DNA from: Terriglobia bacterium | GTDB lineage: Bacteria > Acidobacteriota > Terriglobia > JAIQFV01 | Assembly: GCA_028716525.1 (NCBI GenBank) | Contig: JAQUPQ010000009.1 | Coordinates: 1-64,000 of the forward strand | DNA length: 64,000 nt | Direction of reading: 5' to 3' | Shown here: positions 15,704 through 64,000 of the stretch, piece by piece | Layout: each line of letters begins with the position of its first letter | How positions within the stretch are numbered: position 1 is the first letter of the stretch | Made by a program: the position numbers and the translations under genes | The notes under the pieces: model-generated | Seen by the model: only the letters and a program-made list of their open reading frames with translations | Told to the model about the DNA's origin: nothing | Databases searched by the model: none

Positions 15704-16858
15704 TTACTTCATCCCGGGGGTTGAAGTGGAGTTGCTTTCAAGGATGGCAGCAGTTTCTTCGGTGAGGTCGATGCCCACCGGACACCAGGTGATGCACCTT
15801 CCGCACCCCACACAGCCGAAAGTTCCGAATTGGTCGACCCAAGTGGCCAGCTTATGGATCAGCCATTGCCGATAACGCGATTTTGCTGAACTCCGGATGC
15901 TGCCCCCGTGGATGTAAGAAAAATCGGTAGTGAAACACGAATCCCATTTGCGCCAGCGTTCTGCCCGCACGCCGGAAAGATCGGTGACGTCCTCCATCGT
16001 GTTGCAGAAGCAGGTAGGACAGACCATCGTGCAGTTGCCACAATTTAAACAACGCTCTGCGGTTTCTTCCCAGCGCGGGTGGTCATAGCTCCGATAAAGC
16101 TGTTTCTTGAGGTCGGAGGTGTCGAGCCGACGCCCCATGCGGGTGCGGGCATCGTTTAACATCGTTTCAACTCTTTCGAGGTCGGTCGAAGATGCCTCCT
16201 CCTGAGGAATCTTGGCGGCGATCGTGCGACCGCTCTCGCTTCCGGCTTGACCCACGAAGAAGTGTCGACCTTCATCCTCGATTTCGGTCAAAACGAGATC
16301 AAATCCTTCATCCACTTGCGGTCCGCACTTCATCGACTCGCAGAAACACGTCCCGCCCGGTGAAGTGCAATTCACAGCAATCACCAGAAGTTGAGAGCGC
16401 CTCAAGGCGTATGACGAGTCGGGCAGTGGGCCCGCTTTGAACACTTTGTCCAAAATCGCGAGGGCATGCAGATCGCATGCCCGCACTCCCACAAAGGCAA
16501 GTTTGCCGGCTTCCTGGACTTTCTCCATTATTTCAAATCCGTGGCCGTTTCGAGAGGCGGTCCATAAACAGACCGAAGGAGGATGCAAATACTGCTTGAG
16601 TGAGTGCGGGCCGGATGCGAAATGGAAAAATTCGGGTCGGCTATGGCGCGCCAGTCGGTAGGATCCTCCGGATTGTTCATCAGTCCATCCCACGGGCAAA
16701 TCCGCAGTAGAATTCAATTCCCCAAGGACGATCGCGTCATCGTTGACCGTCGGGCCAATAATTTTGTAGGCTTGCTCGTGCAAGACGACAAATAGACTCT
16801 CGAGATCTTCGGGTTTGAACCGGAAGGGAGGACCCCATTCGGAGGGACGCGGCGTCAT
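15704..16858 (-). CDS. hydB: Hydrogenase Fe-S (beta) subunit
   Basis: This electron-transfer subunit of group 3b hydrogenase (sulfhydrogenase beta) is 384 residues. Two [4Fe-4S] motifs are near the C-terminus: [17 protein letters not shown] and [14 protein letters not shown]. Further cysteines (ACDLHAL region, [12 protein letters not shown]) match the family. It is the first gene of the operon; a promoter and a palindrome lie just upstream. The name beta reflects similarity to anaerobic sulfite reductase A-type subunits; sulfur reduction activity is not implied. Confidence 0.92.
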
Positions 16859-16935: not shown

Positions 16936-16959
16936 CGCCGTTACGTCAACGTAACGGCG
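16936..16959. promoter_or_regulatory. Palindrome upstream of hydB
   Basis: CGCCGTTACGT and ACGTAACGGCG are perfect 11-bp arms around CA. It is about 50 bp upstream of the -10 and 78 bp from hydB, a natural place for an activator or repressor. The rest of the gap 16859-17198 shows no gene. Confidence 0.55.
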
Positions 16960-49371: not shown

Positions 49372-49942
49372 TTGAGCGTATAGCGGGAATGGAGCGTTTC
49401 GTGGGGCCGTATCTCCGTAATGTGCACTTCTTGCAAAACAAGCTCCGCCAGGATGGTTTCCTGATTGAAGTGGCACCGTAAGGCCGAGTTTCATCCGGGG
49501 TGGGGCCTCCATAATGGCACTGGTAGCGCCCGGTTTTTGAGGCTGGCGGTTTTCTGCAGTGGGGACTTTTTCGGGCGAGATTGAAAGATCCGAGTATTGG
49601 CAGAATCTCCATTGATCGCGCCCAAACGCCGCAGCCTTCGCCCGATGAATCGGGGCTCGGCTGCGCTACCATTGCACCTCACGAGGGCCACGGGTAGCGC
49701 CGCCCGTTCTTTAGGGCGGCGGATTTTGCGTGTGGATTAGAGTCGAAATAGATTTCAGTGAGTTGAATCTCGCCAATCTCTAATCGGGCGTTCACCCAAT
49801 AGCCATCATATGGAATTGGTTGCATCAATCTGCGGCGGCGAATCTCCAGTCATTTCGTTGACAAATGAAAAGGGGTACGATACTTTACTTTTTTGAAGAG
49901 GCGGCACACTTATTACTGGAGTTGTTTGTTGATGAGGTATAA
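49372..49942. repeat. Gap with repeat units before the NuoI-like gene
   Basis: Bases 49627-49672 repeat the GCAGCCTTCGCCC...CTCGGCTGCGCTACC element of 34741-34780. Bases 49686-49725 repeat the GCCCGTTCTTTAGGGCGGC hairpin of 9591-9620. No gene is supported here. Confidence 0.55.
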
Positions 49943-57714: not shown

Positions 57715-58326
57715 TTACAGCCTTTGAGATTTGGAGTTTCGCAACAGCTCCAGGAACTCGAGGCGGGTTTGTTGTTCCTGTCGGAAGCATCCCAACATGG
57801 AGCTTGTCATGGCCAGGGAGTTTTGTTTTTCAACTCCACGCATGATCATGCACAGATGTTGAGCTTCGATGACGACCGCCACGCCCAGAGGATTGATTTC
57901 TTCATTGAGGGTTTCAGCGATTTGGCAGGTGAGCCGTTCCTGAATTTGCAACCGTCGTGAAAACATCTCAACCAAGCGGGCAATTTTGCTGAGGCCGATG
58001 ACTTTTTGATTGGGGAGGTAAGCCACATGGCACTTGCCGAAGAAAGGAAGCAAGTGGTGTTCACACAAGCTGAACAGGTCGATGTCCTTCACGATCACCA
58101 TTTCATCGTATTGCACCGTGTAAAGGGCATTGTTCAAAACGAGTTTGGAGTCTTCTTGATAACCCTGCGTCAAGTAGTTCAGAGCTTTGGCCACGCGTTG
58201 GGGGGTTTCCAGCAATCCTTCGCGGTCCGGATCTTCTCCCACCCGAACCAACAATTCGCGAATCAGTTCTTCGAGTGTTGCTTCCTGGAGTGGTTTATCA
58301 GTGCGTGTCAAACCGGATTTCGACAT
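57715..58326 (-). CDS. folE: GTP cyclohydrolase I
   Basis: FolE converts GTP to dihydroneopterin triphosphate for folate, queuosine or other pterins. Zinc and active-site residues are visible in [18 protein letters not shown] and [10 protein letters not shown]. Start at 58326 (MSKSGLTRT) with GAGGA eight bases upstream; the frame runs 23 codons further. 203 residues is typical. It is last in the minus-strand Fe-S operon, 111 bp after nfu, and links Fe-S and pterin genes only by position. Confidence 0.95.
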
Positions 58327-58437
58327 GAGTTCCGTCCTCAATATTCCTGAATCCTTCCGGAGTTTGTAGGTATGGGAAATGTAAAGATCGGGCAAGCGCG
58401 TGGACGGTCCAGCGGTTTCCTAAAGCGGTCTGTGGAA

Positions 58438-58674
58438 TCATTCAAAAGCTGAAACCGGGATGACGTGATCGAAATCCGGGATTTCGGCGCGCAAGGTCTC
58501 TTCGATGCCGAATTGCAGTGTCATCATCGAACTGGGGCATCCCATGCAGGCGCCCACCAATCGAATCTTGGCGCAATTTTCGACCACTTCCACGAGCTCG
58601 ACGTTGCCGCCGTCCATCATAATCGCCGGACGGATCTTGTCGAGCACATCCTCCACTTGTTCGCGTGTAACCAA
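58438..58674 (-). CDS. Nfu-type Fe-S carrier
   Basis: A single Nfu domain of 78 residues with GCP-type motif CMGCPSS holding the cluster between two subunits, and IRPAIMMDGGNVELVEV at the start. TTG at 58674 has GGGAG seven bases upstream and yields the normal family length; the longer frame overlaps iscU. It probably passes clusters from IscU to targets, lipoyl synthase among them. Confidence 0.85.
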   Translation of the reverse strand: MVTREQVEDVLDKIRPAIMMDGGNVELVEVVENCAKIRLVGACMGCPSSMMTLQFGIEETLRAEIPDFDHVIPVSAFE

Positions 58675-58729
58675 TCCACTTCTCCCGAATCGGCCTGGCG
58701 CGAAAGTGGAGGGGCCGTGCCCCCAAGGC

Positions 58730-59152
58730 TTATCCTTTCGCGGTGTCGGCAGACCCGGATGCGCTCTTGACGGCAACACTGAATCGTTTACGGTAGTCTT
58801 GAATGGCTGCCTTGATGGCGTCTTCCGCCAAGACGGAGCAGTGAATTTTCACAGGCGGCAGCTTCAATTCGTTCACGATCTCGGTGTTCTTGATGGAATA
58901 GGCCTCGTCGATGGATTTGCCCTTCACCATCTCAGTCGCCAGACTGGAACTGGCGATGGCGCTCCCGCAGCCGAAGGTTTTAAACTTGGCGTCCTCAATG
59001 ATTCCTTGATTGTTGATCTTCAGTTGCAACTTCATGACGTCCCCGCAGGCAGGCGCACCGACGATGCCCGTACCGACACCCTCTTCGCCTTTCGCAAAGC
59101 TGCCGACATTGCGCGGGTTGTTGTAGTGATCAATGACTTTGGGATCGTACAT
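58730..59152 (-). CDS. iscU: Fe-S scaffold IscU
   Basis: 140 residues. The three cluster cysteines are in GAPACGD, FGCGSAIASSS and HCSVLAEDA, the last being the IscU-type site where Cys follows His; the PPVKIHC motif is the HscA recognition LPPVK. It follows iscS by 88 bp. HscA and HscB on the other strand complete the machine. The C-terminal tail is somewhat extended. Confidence 0.96.
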   Translation of the reverse strand: MYDPKVIDHYNNPRNVGSFAKGEEGVGTGIVGAPACGDVMKLQLKINNQGIIEDAKFKTFGCGSAIASSSLATEMVKGKSIDEAYSIKNTEIVNELKLPPVKIHCSVLAEDAIKAAIQDYRKRFSVAVKSASGSADTAKG

Positions 59153-59240: not shown

Positions 59241-60464
59241 TCATTGCTCGGCATTCCAATTGATGGTGTTGAGATCAATCCCTTCCAAAACCATTTCATA
59301 AAGCGGCGAGAGTTCACGCAGGCGGGTAACGTGTTTGACGACCGCCTCAATGACGTAATCCACTTCCTCTTCCGTGTTGAACCTTCCGACACAAAACCGG
59401 ATGGACGTGTGCGCCAGTTCGGGTCCCACGCCGATAGCCGTCAACACATAGGAGGGCTCCAAGCTGGCTGAAGTACAAGCGGAACCCGACGAGACGGCCA
59501 CGTCTTTCAATCCCATGAGCAACGATTCTCCTTCGACGAACTCAAAACTCAAATTGACGCTTCCGGGGATGCGTTTTTCGGGATGACCGTTTAAGTGTAC
59601 ATAGTCCAACCGTGTCGTCAGCCCTTCCCGCAGCCTTTCCCGCAGCCGCTTCAGGCGCTCCATCTCCGCCGGGAGATCTTTCTGGGCCAATTCGCTGGCG
59701 GCACCGAATCCCACAATGCCGGGAACATTCAACGTTCCCGAGCGTTTTCCCTTTTCGTGTCCTCCACCGTGAATCAAAGGCGCAGCTTTGATGAACGGTT
59801 TCTTCTTGCGAATATACAGGGCTCCGACACCTTTGGGTCCATAAATCTTGTGACCGGAAAGCGCCATCAAATCGACCGCCGTCTTCTGCATGTCGATAGG
59901 TATCTTGCCGGCCGCCTGAACCGCGTCGCAGTGGAAGAGAACGCCTTTTTCCTTGGCAATTTCGCCGATCTCCCGGATGGGCTGAACGGTTCCAATCTCG
60001 CTGTTGGCGTACATGATGGAAATCAAAATGGTTTTGTCGGTGATGGCTGCGCGCACCGTTTCGGGATCCACCAAGCCGTACTTATCGACGTCCAGATAGG
60101 TGACGTCGTAGCCTTCCTTCTGCAAAAACTTGCAGGAATCGAGAACCGCTTTATGCTCGGTTTTCTGCGTGATGATGTGGTTTCCTTTGCTCTTATAACC
60201 CCAGGCAATGCCTTTCAACGCCAGATTGTCGGATTCCGTGGCTCCGCTGGTGAAGATGATCTCATCCGGCGAAGAGGCGTTAATCAGCCGGGCAATTTGC
60301 TCGCGGCCCTTCTCGACCGCGGCCTCGGCGATCCATCCAAAAGAATGAGTGCGGCTGGCGGCGTTGCCGAAATTCTGAGTCAAATAGGGCATCATCGCTT
60401 CCAGAACACGAGGATCCAGCGGGGTCGTTGCGTTGTTATCCATGTAGATGGGCAGTTTTACCAT
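59241..60464 (-). CDS. iscS: Cysteine desulfurase IscS
   Basis: A PLP enzyme giving sulfur to IscU. PLP lysine in [12 protein letters not shown], catalytic cysteine in [17 protein letters not shown], and the N-terminal [13 protein letters not shown] are all present. ATG at 60464 ([10 protein letters not shown]) has GAGGGA just upstream; the longer frame runs into the regulator gene. 407 residues is a typical IscS/NifS length. Confidence 0.96.
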
Positions 60465-60492: not shown

Positions 60493-60969
60493 TTAAGACA
60501 CCAAGGCCTTAAAAGTAGTCGGGATTTCTCCTTCGTAAAAGATGCATTCCTGACAGTAACGTTCCAACGGTTCAAAACGGCATGTGGGGCAGCCTTCGAG
60601 CACCCGTAGTGTGCTCTGAAATTCCTCCCGCATCTTCGTGAGGAATGCAATCTTGAAGTTGAGCGCCTTTTCCTGTTCGCTCAAAATATCTTTGATCTTT
60701 CCAACCGCGTCCTTCTTTGTGGCGGCTTGATCTTTGGCGTTGAATATCGTCTCAATCTCAGACAGCTTCAATCCATACTCTTTGAGGTTGTTGATGGTGA
60801 TGATCTTGTCGACGCAATCCTGGGAATAGAGACGGTTTCCGCGGTGGCTGTGATCGGTGGGGTTAATCAAGCCGATCTCCTCATAAAACCGGAGCGTACG
60901 AGTTGTTATACCGGTCATTTTGGCCAGCTTACCGATCCGCATCAATTGACCGTTGCCATTCGTCGACAT
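60493..60969 (-). CDS. MerR-family regulator with a four-cysteine C-terminus
   Basis: 158 residues. Winged helix-turn-helix at residues 10-80 ([22 protein letters not shown]), dimer coiled coil, then [19 protein letters not shown] near the end: two CxxC pairs 12 residues apart. MerR proteins with this type of end bind metal or a cluster. It is first of the iscS-iscU operon, 28 bp upstream of iscS, where most genomes have the Rrf2-type IscR, so I infer an Fe-S or redox sensing role. ATG at 60969 with GAGGGA seven bases upstream. Confidence 0.88.
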
Positions 60970-60988
60970 ACGAATCCCTCGAAAGTTG

Positions 60989-61017
60989 ACGATAACGTAA
61001 ATTTTATAAGGTGTCAA
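60989..61017 (-). promoter_or_regulatory. Sigma-70 promoter of the merR-iscS-iscU operon
   Basis: TTGACA (61012-61017, minus strand) and TATCGT (60989-60994) are separated by 17 bp, giving a start about 13 bp upstream of the ATG, unusually short. Confidence 0.5.
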
Positions 61018-61088
61018 GGAATTTGTCCTGGAACGAAATTGGACGCGGGCGCCTGCGGGCCTAAGGAATTGCTCCATGAATCGGATCA

Positions 61089-61105
61089 ATGTTATTAAAT
61101 AACAT
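61089..61105. promoter_or_regulatory. 17-bp palindrome in the divergent control region
   Basis: ATGTTATT-A-AATAACAT has perfect 8-bp arms. It lies just upstream of the TTTACT...TATAAT promoter. Confidence 0.5.
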
Positions 61106-61110
61106 GTTTA

Positions 61111-61138
61111 TTTACTGTAGCTTATTAGTGTTTATAAT
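61111..61138 (+). promoter_or_regulatory. Candidate sigma-70 promoter toward iscA
   Basis: TTTACT, 16 bp, TATAAT. Transcripts would have a leader of about 155 nt before iscA. Confidence 0.4.
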
Positions 61139-61230
61139 TATGCGTAAGAGTAGCGATCTCATGTATTCCAAGGGTCTGAGTTAACGTCAGTTATGCATCA
61201 GATCATGAATAATAACCATCGATTTTTGAT

Positions 61231-61260
61231 TTGACAATATTTAACTTGGACGTTAAGTTA
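61231..61260 (+). promoter_or_regulatory. MerR-type promoter/operator before iscA
   Basis: TTGACA (61231-61236) is followed by the dyad TAACTT-ggacgtt-AAGTTA (61242-61260), the arrangement used by MerR proteins, whose dyad lies between -35 and -10. A good -10 is not evident at 19-20 bp, which fits an activator-dependent promoter. It is 42 bp before the iscA start. Confidence 0.5.
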
Positions 61261-61301
61261 CTGGGCGGAGGATATTTGATCGATGGTATCGAGGGAAAGC
61301 A

Positions 61302-61622
61302 ATGATAACTCTAACCCCAGCGGCGGCTGAGAAGATTCAAGAGACCATAAACAAGAAGGGCCATGCGGATGGCGGACTGAGAGTCCGGGTCGTGGGCGGT
61401 GGGTGTTCGGGACTGCAATATAATTTAGATTTGGAAACCCAGGAACGCAAAGGGGACAAGGTATATGAATCCAGCGGGATCAAGGTGTTCATCGACCTCA
61501 AGAGCCTTTTGTATTTGAAGGGGACGGAGATCGATTACGTGGACGCCTTGCAGCACGGGGGGTTCAAATTCAGGAATCCGAATGCCCATGGAAGTTGCAG
61601 TTGTGGAGAATCCTTCCACTAG
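61302..61622 (+). CDS. iscA: A-type Fe-S carrier IscA
   Basis: 106 residues with the three A-type cysteines: GGCSGLQYNLDLE (C35) and HGSCSCGESFH (C-x-C at the end). It delivers Fe or clusters to apo-proteins. First of the plus-strand Fe-S operon. Confidence 0.94.
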   Translation: MITLTPAAAEKIQETINKKGHADGGLRVRVVGGGCSGLQYNLDLETQERKGDKVYESSGIKVFIDLKSLLYLKGTEIDYVDALQHGGFKFRNPNAHGSCSCGESFH

Positions 61623-61667: not shown

Positions 61668-61871
61668 ATGGACTGGGATGATACCCAAGAGATTGCCGAA
61701 AAGTTGAGCGAGACGCATCCTGAAATTACCGATCCCTACTCCATGCGATTCACGGAATTGTTCCAGTGGGTCATTCATTTGGAGGGGTTCGAAGGCGACA
61801 AAGCGCCCCAGACCTCGATGGAAGGGAAGCTCGAGAACATCGTCAAAGCCTGGGCCGAATACCTCCAATAA
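61668..61871 (+). CDS. iscX: IscX (YfhJ-like) accessory protein
   Basis: A 67-residue acidic protein matching IscX, with DWDDTQEIAEKLSE at the start and RFTELFQWVIHLEGFEG in the middle, the segment that contacts IscS. It is thought to tune IscS as an iron adaptor. It lies 45 bp after iscA and 71 bp before hscB, as in gamma-proteobacterial isc operons. Confidence 0.93.
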   Translation: MDWDDTQEIAEKLSETHPEITDPYSMRFTELFQWVIHLEGFEGDKAPQTSMEGKLENIVKAWAEYLQ

Positions 61872-61942: not shown

Positions 61943-62653
61943 ATGAGAGTCGTTTGTGTGAATTGTTCATCGCGGGAAGTCGGCCACTGGTGCAGTCATT
62001 GTGGCGCTGTTCTTCCGACGCCGGACAATGAGAACTATTTTTCGATTCTGGGTCTTCCCCAAAAGATCAATTTGGATGAAGAAATTCTCAAAGAACGGTT
62101 CTTTGACCTGAACCGGGCGTTTCATCCCGACCGCTCCTCCCGGATGAAGGACCCGCGTATGCGCGACATCGCCACTCGTAAATCCACACTTATCAACAAC
62201 AGCTTCAATACCCTGCGCGATCGCACACGCCGCATTCAATATTTAATTCGTCAGGGTCTGGGGGACCGCGAGGAGAAATCGGGGCAGATTCCTTTGACCC
62301 TGTTCGATCTCGTTGAACGCGTGAATGACCTCATGGTTGAACTGAAAGAAGCTAAAGAATCGTCGAAAGCTCCGGGTAGTCCAACCAACGGCCGGAAGGT
62401 CAGTGAAGCCGCCAAAGAGCTGGAGGGAGAACTGCAGGAGTTGGTGGCGCGGCGAGAAGCTTTTGAATCAAATCTCCATTCCAGGGAATCAGAATGGGAT
62501 GATTTGTGCGATCACACGGAAAATTTTGAGCGTTTGAGCGCCGACGACCTGGCGGCGCGCCAGCAGATTCTCCAGGCGCTTTCCGTTCGAATGGACGAAA
62601 TCTCTTATATTGATTCGCTGATCCGGAGAATCAAAGACACGCTCTTCGAGTAA
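61943..62653 (+). CDS. hscB: Co-chaperone HscB with N-terminal zinc-ribbon
   Basis: 236 residues. A CVNC/CSHC pair at residues 5-22 precedes a J domain containing FHPDRSS (HPD motif), then the HscB C-terminal three-helix domain. E. coli HscB lacks the cysteines; mitochondrial HSC20-like forms have a similar N-terminal pair. It brings IscU to HscA. ATG at 61943 has AAGGA six bases upstream; the overlapping longer frame is a shadow of iscX. Confidence 0.92.
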   Translation: MRVVCVNCSSREVGHWCSHCGAVLPTPDNENYFSILGLPQKINLDEEILKERFFDLNRAFHPDRSSRMKDPRMRDIATRKSTLINNSFNTLRDRTRRIQYLIRQGLGDREEKSGQIPLTLFDLVERVNDLMVELKEAKESSKAPGSPTNGRKVSEAAKELEGELQELVARREAFESNLHSRESEWDDLCDHTENFERLSADDLAARQQILQALSVRMDEISYIDSLIRRIKDTLFE

Positions 62654-62660
62654 CGACTTC

Positions 62661-64000
62661 ATGGCGCAGAAAATCATTGGAATCGATTTAGGAACGACCA
62701 ACTCGGTCGTGGCGGTCATGGAAGGGGGACAGGTCACGGTCATTGCCGATGACGATCAGCAGAGGCTGTGTCCTTCCATTGTCGCCGTCAACGACGGCGC
62801 GGCGCCTCTGGTGGGCTATCCGGCGCGCAATCAGCTGGTCGTCAATCCGCGCCAAACCATCTATTCGATCAAACGTTTCATGGGCCGGCGCCATCAGGAA
62901 GTTGCGGAAGAAGAAAAGAATATTTCCTATGAAATCGTGGGCGGGCCCGAGGAGATGGTCAAAGTTCGAGCCGGCCGCCGCATCTTTACACCTCCCGAAG
63001 TTTCCGCCATTATTTTGAGAACACTGAAGGACCGGGCCGAGAAATTTCTTCACTCGGAAATTCAAAAGGCCATTATTACCGTCCCCGCCTATTTTAATGA
63101 CAGCCAGCGCCAGGCCACCAAGGATGCCGGCGGTTTGGCCGGATTGGTGGTGGAGCGAATCATCAACGAACCCACGGCAGCGGCCTTGGCCTACGGCCTG
63201 GACCGGAAGCAGATCTCCAAGGTGGCGGTGTTTGATTTGGGCGGCGGAACGTTTGATGTTTCCATTCTGGAATTGTCGGAAGGGATTTTTCATGTGCTGG
63301 CGACCAACGGCAACACGCACCTCGGAGGCGACGACATCGACCGCCGGTTGGTGGAGTGGGTCTATACGGAATTTGAGAAACAGAACGCCTTCCCCCTGAA
63401 CCGCCAGCCTCAGGTGTTCGAACGGGTGCGGCAGGAAGCAGAACGCGTGAAATGCGCATTGTCGTTTGAAGATTCTGAGAGTTTCGACCTTCCGATTTTG
63501 GAGACGCGGGACGGCAAGGTGTTCAATTTTACCCGCCGCCTTTCTCGCGCTGACCTGGAATCCTTGGTGCGGGGGATCATCGACCGAACGATCAATCCCT
63601 GCCGCCGCGCTCTGGACGACGCCGCTTTGACCCCGGAGCAGATCAATGAAGTGATCCTGGTGGGCGGTTCCACCCGCATGCCGTTGGTGCGACGGGTGGT
63701 TCAGGAAGTATTTCGAAAAGAACCCAACACCAGCGTCAACCCCGATGAAGTTGTGGCCATCGGGGCGGCCATTCAGGGAGCGGTTTTGTCGGGAGAAATT
63801 TCTGATGTGTTGTTATTGGATGTGAATCCGCTTTCGCTGGGAATTGAAACGTACGGCGGAGCCATGAGCAAGTTGATTTTCCGGAATTCACCTATTCCCG
63901 CGACGGCCAAGGAAGTATTTACGACGGCGGTGGACCACCAAACCGCCATCGATGTTCACATTCTTCAAGGCGAGCGGGAAATGGCGGCCGACAACCGCAC
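62661..64000 (+). CDS. hscA: Hsp70-type chaperone HscA (3' partial)
   Basis: The ATPase domain is visible from IGIDLGTTNSVVAV through FDLGGGTFDVSIL and LVGGSTRMPLVR to VAIGAAIQGAVL, then the start of the substrate domain (DVNPLSLGIETYGG). It continues past the window edge. Proximity to hscB, 7 bp before, argues for HscA rather than DnaK, although the sequence alone resembles both. HscA uses ATP to release the cluster from IscU. Confidence 0.92.
   Translation, partial: MAQKIIGIDLGTTNSVVAVMEGGQVTVIADDDQQRLCPSIVAVNDGAAPLVGYPARNQLVVNPRQTIYSIKRFMGRRHQEVAEEEKNISYEIVGGPEEMVKVRAGRRIFTPPEVSAIILRTLKDRAEKFLHSEIQKAIITVPAYFNDSQRQATKDAGGLAGLVVERIINEPTAAALAYGLDRKQISKVAVFDLGGGTFDVSILELSEGIFHVLATNGNTHLGGDDIDRRLVEWVYTEFEKQNAFPLNRQPQVFERVRQEAERVKCALSFEDSESFDLPILETRDGKVFNFTRRLSRADLESLVRGIIDRTINPCRRALDDAALTPEQINEVILVGGSTRMPLVRRVVQEVFRKEPNTSVNPDEVVAIGAAIQGAVLSGEISDVLLLDVNPLSLGIETYGGAMSKLIFRNSPIPATAKEVFTTAVDHQTAIDVHILQGEREMAADNR

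Follow-up and report, generated by a model that had tools for sequence, protein, structure and literature searches.

The four-cysteine MerR protein encoded in the DNA analysed here is, in our judgement, probably the equivalent of IscR on a MerR fold: it would repress the isc regulon, its own operon included, at promoters with a 17-bp spacer and sense clusters through its four cysteines. Its gene (positions 60493-60969, minus strand; 158 aa, ATG start) lies in a stretch of 64,000 nucleotides, the whole of which is called the window. As originally predicted, a cysteine-rich MerR protein heads the iscS-iscU operon; the minus-strand order is merR-iscS-iscU-nfu, with a gap of 28 bp between merR and iscS. 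The cysteine desulfurase gene iscS (59241-60464; NF010611, 635.7 bits) and the scaffold gene iscU (58730-59152; TIGR01999, 221 bits) both scored above cut-off, and they are followed by a NifU C-terminal-type (Nfu) reading frame (58438-58779; PF01106, 85.2 bits) whose exact start is uncertain. Facing this operon on the plus strand are iscA, for an A-type carrier (61302-61622; PF01521, 80.5 bits; TIGR00049 above cut-off), iscX (61668-61871; TIGR03412, 67.9 bits, above cut-off), hscB, for a co-chaperone with a DnaJ domain (61943-62653), and a gene for an hscA-type Hsp70 (62661-63998) that continues beyond the window. The hscB assignment combines a PRK05014-type match slightly under the equivalog cut-offs with the place of the gene between iscX and hscA, and hscA was identified from its reading frame and sequence and named by operon position. 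The HscB homologue also has an N-terminal four-cysteine segment, CVNC...CSHC (61943-62100), that recalls the zinc finger of HSC20 from eukaryotes.

Profile searches of the merR product returned domains of MerR families only (PF13411, 66.8 bits against a cut-off of 21.6) and no Rrf2 domain. The structure model (pLDDT 89) had a MerR-type fold with a helix at residues 85-129, and profile and model together revealed the superfamily traits of an N-terminal winged helix-turn-helix and an antiparallel dimerisation helix. The predicted motifs CPTC (C127, C130) and CQEC (C139, C142) are both present in the C-terminal tail, where they form a C-x2-C-x8-C-x2-C loop directly after the dimerisation helix in the model. 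The conservation of these cysteines in orthologues, on which the original prediction hung, was confirmed, as all four were invariant across 25 aligned family members. In a fold search of the PDB the top matches all belonged to the MerR family, the nearest being CadR, CueR, MtaN and SoxR. The protein did not reach the SoxR profile (TIGR01950, 42 bits against a cut-off of 116.9) or any of the metal-responsive equivalogs CueR, ZntR, CadR-PbrR and MerR (at best 64 bits, against 168 for ZntR), and neither NCBIfam nor the fold search offered a closer named relative than ZntR, CueR, CadR or SoxR. It is a member of the MerR superfamily, and not SoxR, CueR or IscR. SoxR, which carries a [2Fe-2S] cluster, shares with it the MerR fold and four cysteines after the dimerisation helix, the cluster site of SoxR, but the SoxR ligands are Cys119, 122, 124 and 130 (C-x2-C-x-C-x5-C; PMC9909328), a spacing different from that found here. 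CueR, ZntR and CadR, the best structural matches, share the fold and a cysteine-rich C-terminal loop, whereas their targets are metal-efflux genes with 19-20-bp spacers rather than Fe-S assembly genes with 17-bp spacers.

The cysteines could be read in another way, in which the MerR protein represses the isc promoters without an Fe-S cluster and the four residues form a zinc or single-iron site or a thiol switch, the signal being zinc, iron or an oxidant. C-x2-C-x8-10-C-x2-C is a common zinc-site pattern too, and the zinc and cadmium regulator CadR was among the closest solved folds. Two relatives from Planctomycetota (L170, L171) have C-x2-C-x8-C-x2-H, with a histidine for the fourth cysteine; this substitution is compatible with general metal binding and, judged from the residues, seems to fit coordination of a metal or cluster rather than a disulphide. 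Against this, the steady neighbours of these proteins are Fe-S assembly genes and not genes for zinc or for oxidant defence, and the scores were far under the cut-offs for ZntR, CueR and CadR. We regard this alternative as possible, although rather unlikely.

The proposed comparative search for merR-iscS synteny gave a clear result. Two genomes of the same family (G001, G002) retained merR-iscS opposite iscA-iscX; identity was 83% and none of the four cysteines was missing. Linkage of merR to isc genes was found in several phyla. Elsewhere in the phylum the arrangements were iscA-folB-merR-nuoB (L012, L013) and merR-nifU-nifS (L014). A scan of named genomes revealed the order merR-iscS-iscU-iscA-hscB-hscA, in which merR takes the exact position of IscR, in L028, L038 and L044 (from a deltaproteobacterial MAG of the Myxococcota, a proteobacterial record and a Phycisphaera); Latescibacterota/Gemmatimonadota records (L017-L020) had merR-iscA-iscS, and a Bdellovibrio MAG (L034) had merR-nifU-nifS. 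Four-cysteine MerR proteins beside isc or nif genes were found in Acidobacteriota, Myxococcota, Latescibacterota/Gemmatimonadota records, Planctomycetota and Bdellovibrionota, and HMM searches gave matches in 101 of 284 genomes of the phylum of L028 and in 39 of 64 of that of L018. With near-copies removed, iscS, iscA, iscU or nifU adjoined 50 of 68 four-cysteine MerR proteins compared with 0 of 21 lacking the motif (Fisher p = 5e-10), figures that come from loci fetched by similarity, with short flanks, and do not amount to a census. The other 18 of the 68, which include a paralogue from the same genome, had no isc neighbour within the flanks examined. In a tree the four-cysteine proteins were strongly clustered (5 changes versus 19 when shuffled), yet did not form one clade; weak relatives from the class (L006-L008) were left out, as they lack the cysteines. 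The viral contigs searched contained no relative.

Dyads had been predicted in both promoters, and this was upheld. The merR promoter (60989-61017, minus strand) consists of TTGACA (61017-61012), a 17-bp spacer and TATCGT (60994-60989), and a dyad absent from the original prediction, TTTACG-TTAT-CGTCAA, overlaps its -10; this putative operator of merR-iscS-iscU, TTTACGTTATCGTCAA (60986-61001, minus strand), was kept in three genomes. In the iscA promoter (61231-61259, plus strand) the predicted TTGACA was found at 61231-61236, followed by a 17-bp spacer and TAAGTT (61254-61259). The partial dyad reported there, TAACTT-N7-AAGTTA, is present and ends at 61260, and the better conserved dyad of this promoter is TTAAC-N6-GTTAA (61241-61256). 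The latter forms the core, TTAACTTGGACGTTAA, of the putative operator of the iscA operon (61239-61258, plus strand), which lies between the -35 and the -10 and was recognised by its conservation and its matrix rank of 2. Across three genomes of the family the merR-iscA intergenic region contained mainly two conserved blocks, one in each promoter. A second palindrome claimed as part of the system, ATGTTATTAAATAACAT (61089-61105, 17 bp), does exist, but it was not kept in two relatives and scored far under the family operator in the matrix; it was rejected as an operator and probably lies outside the system.

The 64 kb window contains just two copies of the element TTGACA-N13-ACGTTA (expected 0.00), and each of the facing promoters holds one of them. 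Genome-wide there were 4, 4 and 3 matches in the three family genomes and 0 for a reversed control, and in all three the element was present at the promoters of merR, iscA and a second A-type carrier. This distant, ErpA-like gene had one element 75-95 bp upstream in each family genome (G000:C27:49046 in the genome of the window). In 58 members of the class that lack a close relative of this MerR protein, 12 scattered matches were obtained, none of them before an Fe-S gene. Across phyla the promoters of these operons had in common the palindrome CTnACG-N4-CGTnAG, which for the most part accompanies a sigma-70 promoter with the normal 17-bp spacer, and it was detected in 27 of 49 non-redundant linked loci versus 1 of 21 controls (0.15 expected), being absent from the other 22 linked loci within the stretch tested. 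Of the Myxococcota genomes, 16 of the 28 that have the MerR protein also had a 20-bp form of the operator, and none of the 20 that lack the protein did. A matrix trained on phyla other than that of the window placed its top match just upstream of iscA in L012 and L013, and gave the iscA and merR sites ranks 2 and 6 among the 64,000 window positions, both operators being weaker than those of Myxococcota. Further targets suggested by a genome-wide scan allowing one mismatch (for example nuoI, at window position 49858, and moaA) were discarded, as the counts equalled those of the reversed control, and exact matches at an aminotransferase gene (L117) and thiE (L122), which are not Fe-S genes, were taken as chance. 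The best match of the cross-phylum matrix in the window, CCGTTACGTCAACGTAACGG (16938-16957), is located about 80 bp before a gene for a 4Fe-4S dicluster protein (15704-16858, minus strand) with a cNMP-binding gene following it, and may be a further target or a mere hairpin.

The spacing of the promoters did not agree with the original prediction, which had described the dyad of the iscA promoter (61231-61260) as in MerR spacing. MerR activators typically require 19-20 bp between the -35 and -10 (PMC9909328, PMC8113463). Such a spacer enclosing the operator, a typical although not universal feature of the superfamily, was absent here: 17 bp gave the best -10 (TAnnnT) at all nine family sites, and most relatives also had good 17-bp promoters. 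Long spacers carried a penalty in the promoter scoring; MerR-type fits were also lower when unpenalised, with the exception of a few loci (L044/L158 and L213 among them) in which no good 17-bp promoter was found. The position of the operator varied as well, from between the -35 and -10 (L020 group) to over the -10 (merR in the window) and, in most Myxococcota, to a centre about 9 bp past the -10. Variation of this kind on good promoters suggests the behaviour of a blocking repressor, and the operator geometry as a whole, with its 17-bp spacers, points to repression rather than activation of the MerR type. As a precedent, altered spacing of promoter elements is reported in one study (reference 124 in PMC9909328) to convert SoxR from an activator to a repressor. 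The MerR fold itself, together with the position of the iscA operator between -35 and -10, would suit a classical activator on a 19-20-bp spacer, which would induce isc under stress by a SoxR-like twist of the promoter in response to oxidation or loading of its cofactor. SoxR is an activator that depends on a long spacer, whereas the promoters of the window have 17 bp. Distortion of the spacer cannot work from an operator lying past the -10, as in most Myxococcota, and with the evidence from the nine family sites and from most relatives a classical activator is very improbable.

A different possibility is that the MerR protein is a passenger and that another factor controls the promoters, for example the one Rrf2 protein that the genome encodes. 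The statement that no Rrf2-type IscR is present held for the 64 kb window, but the genome (G000, 96% complete) encodes one full Rrf2 protein elsewhere, unlinked to isc. It has three C-terminal cysteines and is conserved in relatives, and isc genes are under Rrf2 control in other bacteria (PMC8593673, PMC9973013). However, the genes on either side of it are rmlD-like and NicO/HupE-like, a setting repeated in a relative, no family operator is near it in G000, and the protein scored 60.5 bits against the NCBIfam IscR cut-off of 207.6. No evidence emerged for an IscR elsewhere in control of these promoters, which would have told against the original prediction. The operator, moreover, tracks the MerR gene across genomes, and one genome with merR-nifU-nifS (G112) had no Rrf2 protein above cut-off. 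We consider a passenger role the least probable of the alternatives and hardly credible. SufB/D was not found in the genome of the window or in its two family relatives, whereas the control was detected in 14 of 14 genomes; it is therefore very likely that these three genomes have no Fe-S assembly system of this kind besides ISC. Three other genomes (G349, G350 and G352; L264-L269) contain merR-iscA-iscS together with SUF, and there an Rrf2 gene is found about 2 kb from sufB/D, so that ISC and SUF may be separately regulated, the former by MerR and the latter by Rrf2.

Gene order, invariant cysteines, linkage across phyla, a common operator and a normal spacer are the features that can be read from the sequences, and from these we infer that the MerR protein itself binds the operator and represses. 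In the model that we favour, a MerR dimer would bind the palindrome CTnACG-N4-CGTnAG, represented in the window by the two operators described above, where it lies over sigma-70 promoters with 17-bp spacing, and would there block RNA polymerase. The targets would be its own operon merR-iscS-iscU-nfu, iscA-iscX-hscB-hscA and the distant gene for the second A-type carrier. The loop that follows the dimerisation helix would hold an Fe-S cluster on its four cysteines and so sense Fe-S or redox status, and in Fe-S shortage the cofactor would be lost or changed and the isc promoters released. The nature of the cofactor and the direction of the response, that is, whether the holo or the apo form represses, are assigned by analogy with IscR and RisR (PMC8593673, PMC9973013); the simplest model on that basis is negative feedback with the cofactor-loaded MerR protein as the repressor.

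The idea that a MerR protein occupies the place of IscR has strong support from its conserved cysteines, its linkage to isc in several phyla and the operator shared by the promoters. Like IscR, the [2Fe-2S] Rrf2 protein of E. coli (PMC8593673), it is encoded at the head of an isc operon and has cysteines as likely ligands, and the palindrome over its own -10 would be the repressor site of such a protein; by this analogy it probably works in the same way, through autorepression and negative feedback. IscR differs in its unrelated Rrf2 fold, its three cysteines and one histidine and its operator, compared with a MerR fold and four cysteines here, for which a cluster is proposed. RisR of Myxococcus xanthus is likewise a holo-repressor of isc (and suf), in a phylum in which the MerR version is common (PMC9973013), but it has an Rrf2 fold and is encoded with suf rather than isc, and no regulator gene heads the M. 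xanthus isc operon, unlike that of the window. SufR is a dedicated repressor adjoining an Fe-S assembly operon (PMC8593673), but has a DeoR-type fold and controls suf, not isc. A review of Fe-S regulation names IscR (Rrf2) and SufR (DeoR) as dedicated regulators, alongside general ones such as Fur and OxyR, and MerR goes unmentioned in it (PMC8593673). No description of a MerR regulator of isc genes was found in NCBIfam or in the open-access literature searched, and an earlier one may exist. With somewhat less confidence than for the protein of the window, we lean towards a wider proposal, namely that these proteins form an undescribed family of MerR-fold, cluster-binding autorepressors, dedicated to isc or nif in several phyla and often in genomes lacking SUF, which were recruited independently of IscR and RisR and block ordinary promoters without distorting DNA. 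Fe-S assembly is an essential pathway, and the candidate points to an undescribed bacterial way of controlling it and bears on how ISC output is matched to demand outside the IscR and SufR lineages. It supplies a regulator, an operator and targets that are directly testable in Acidobacteriota, Myxococcota, Planctomycetota and others, and could add to the MerR superfamily both a second type with cysteines that read Fe-S status and a group apparently acting as plain repressors.

The four-cysteine motif is also used outside isc. A second such MerR protein, with CARC...CGDC and 36-41% identical, is encoded in the same three genomes (L009, L010 and L011, the last at G000:C42:7879-8304), flanked by a sigma-54-type regulator and usp/ald and devoid of the isc operator. 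Another clade (L239-L246), from a Latescibacterota-type set, has sigma-factor and purH genes (L239, L246) and not isc as neighbours, and L210 adjoins folE. Folate or pterin genes recur near these MerR proteins: folE follows nfu in the window (57715-58395) and folB separates iscA from merR in L012 and L013. MerR proteins from Spirochaetota (L029, L036, L042, L051, L053, L056, L071, L081, L085 and L093), for which no isc neighbours were seen, have cysteines in an ending CPGxxCxxCxxxxxC, a pattern that possibly marks a separate group of cluster- or metal-binding MerR proteins.
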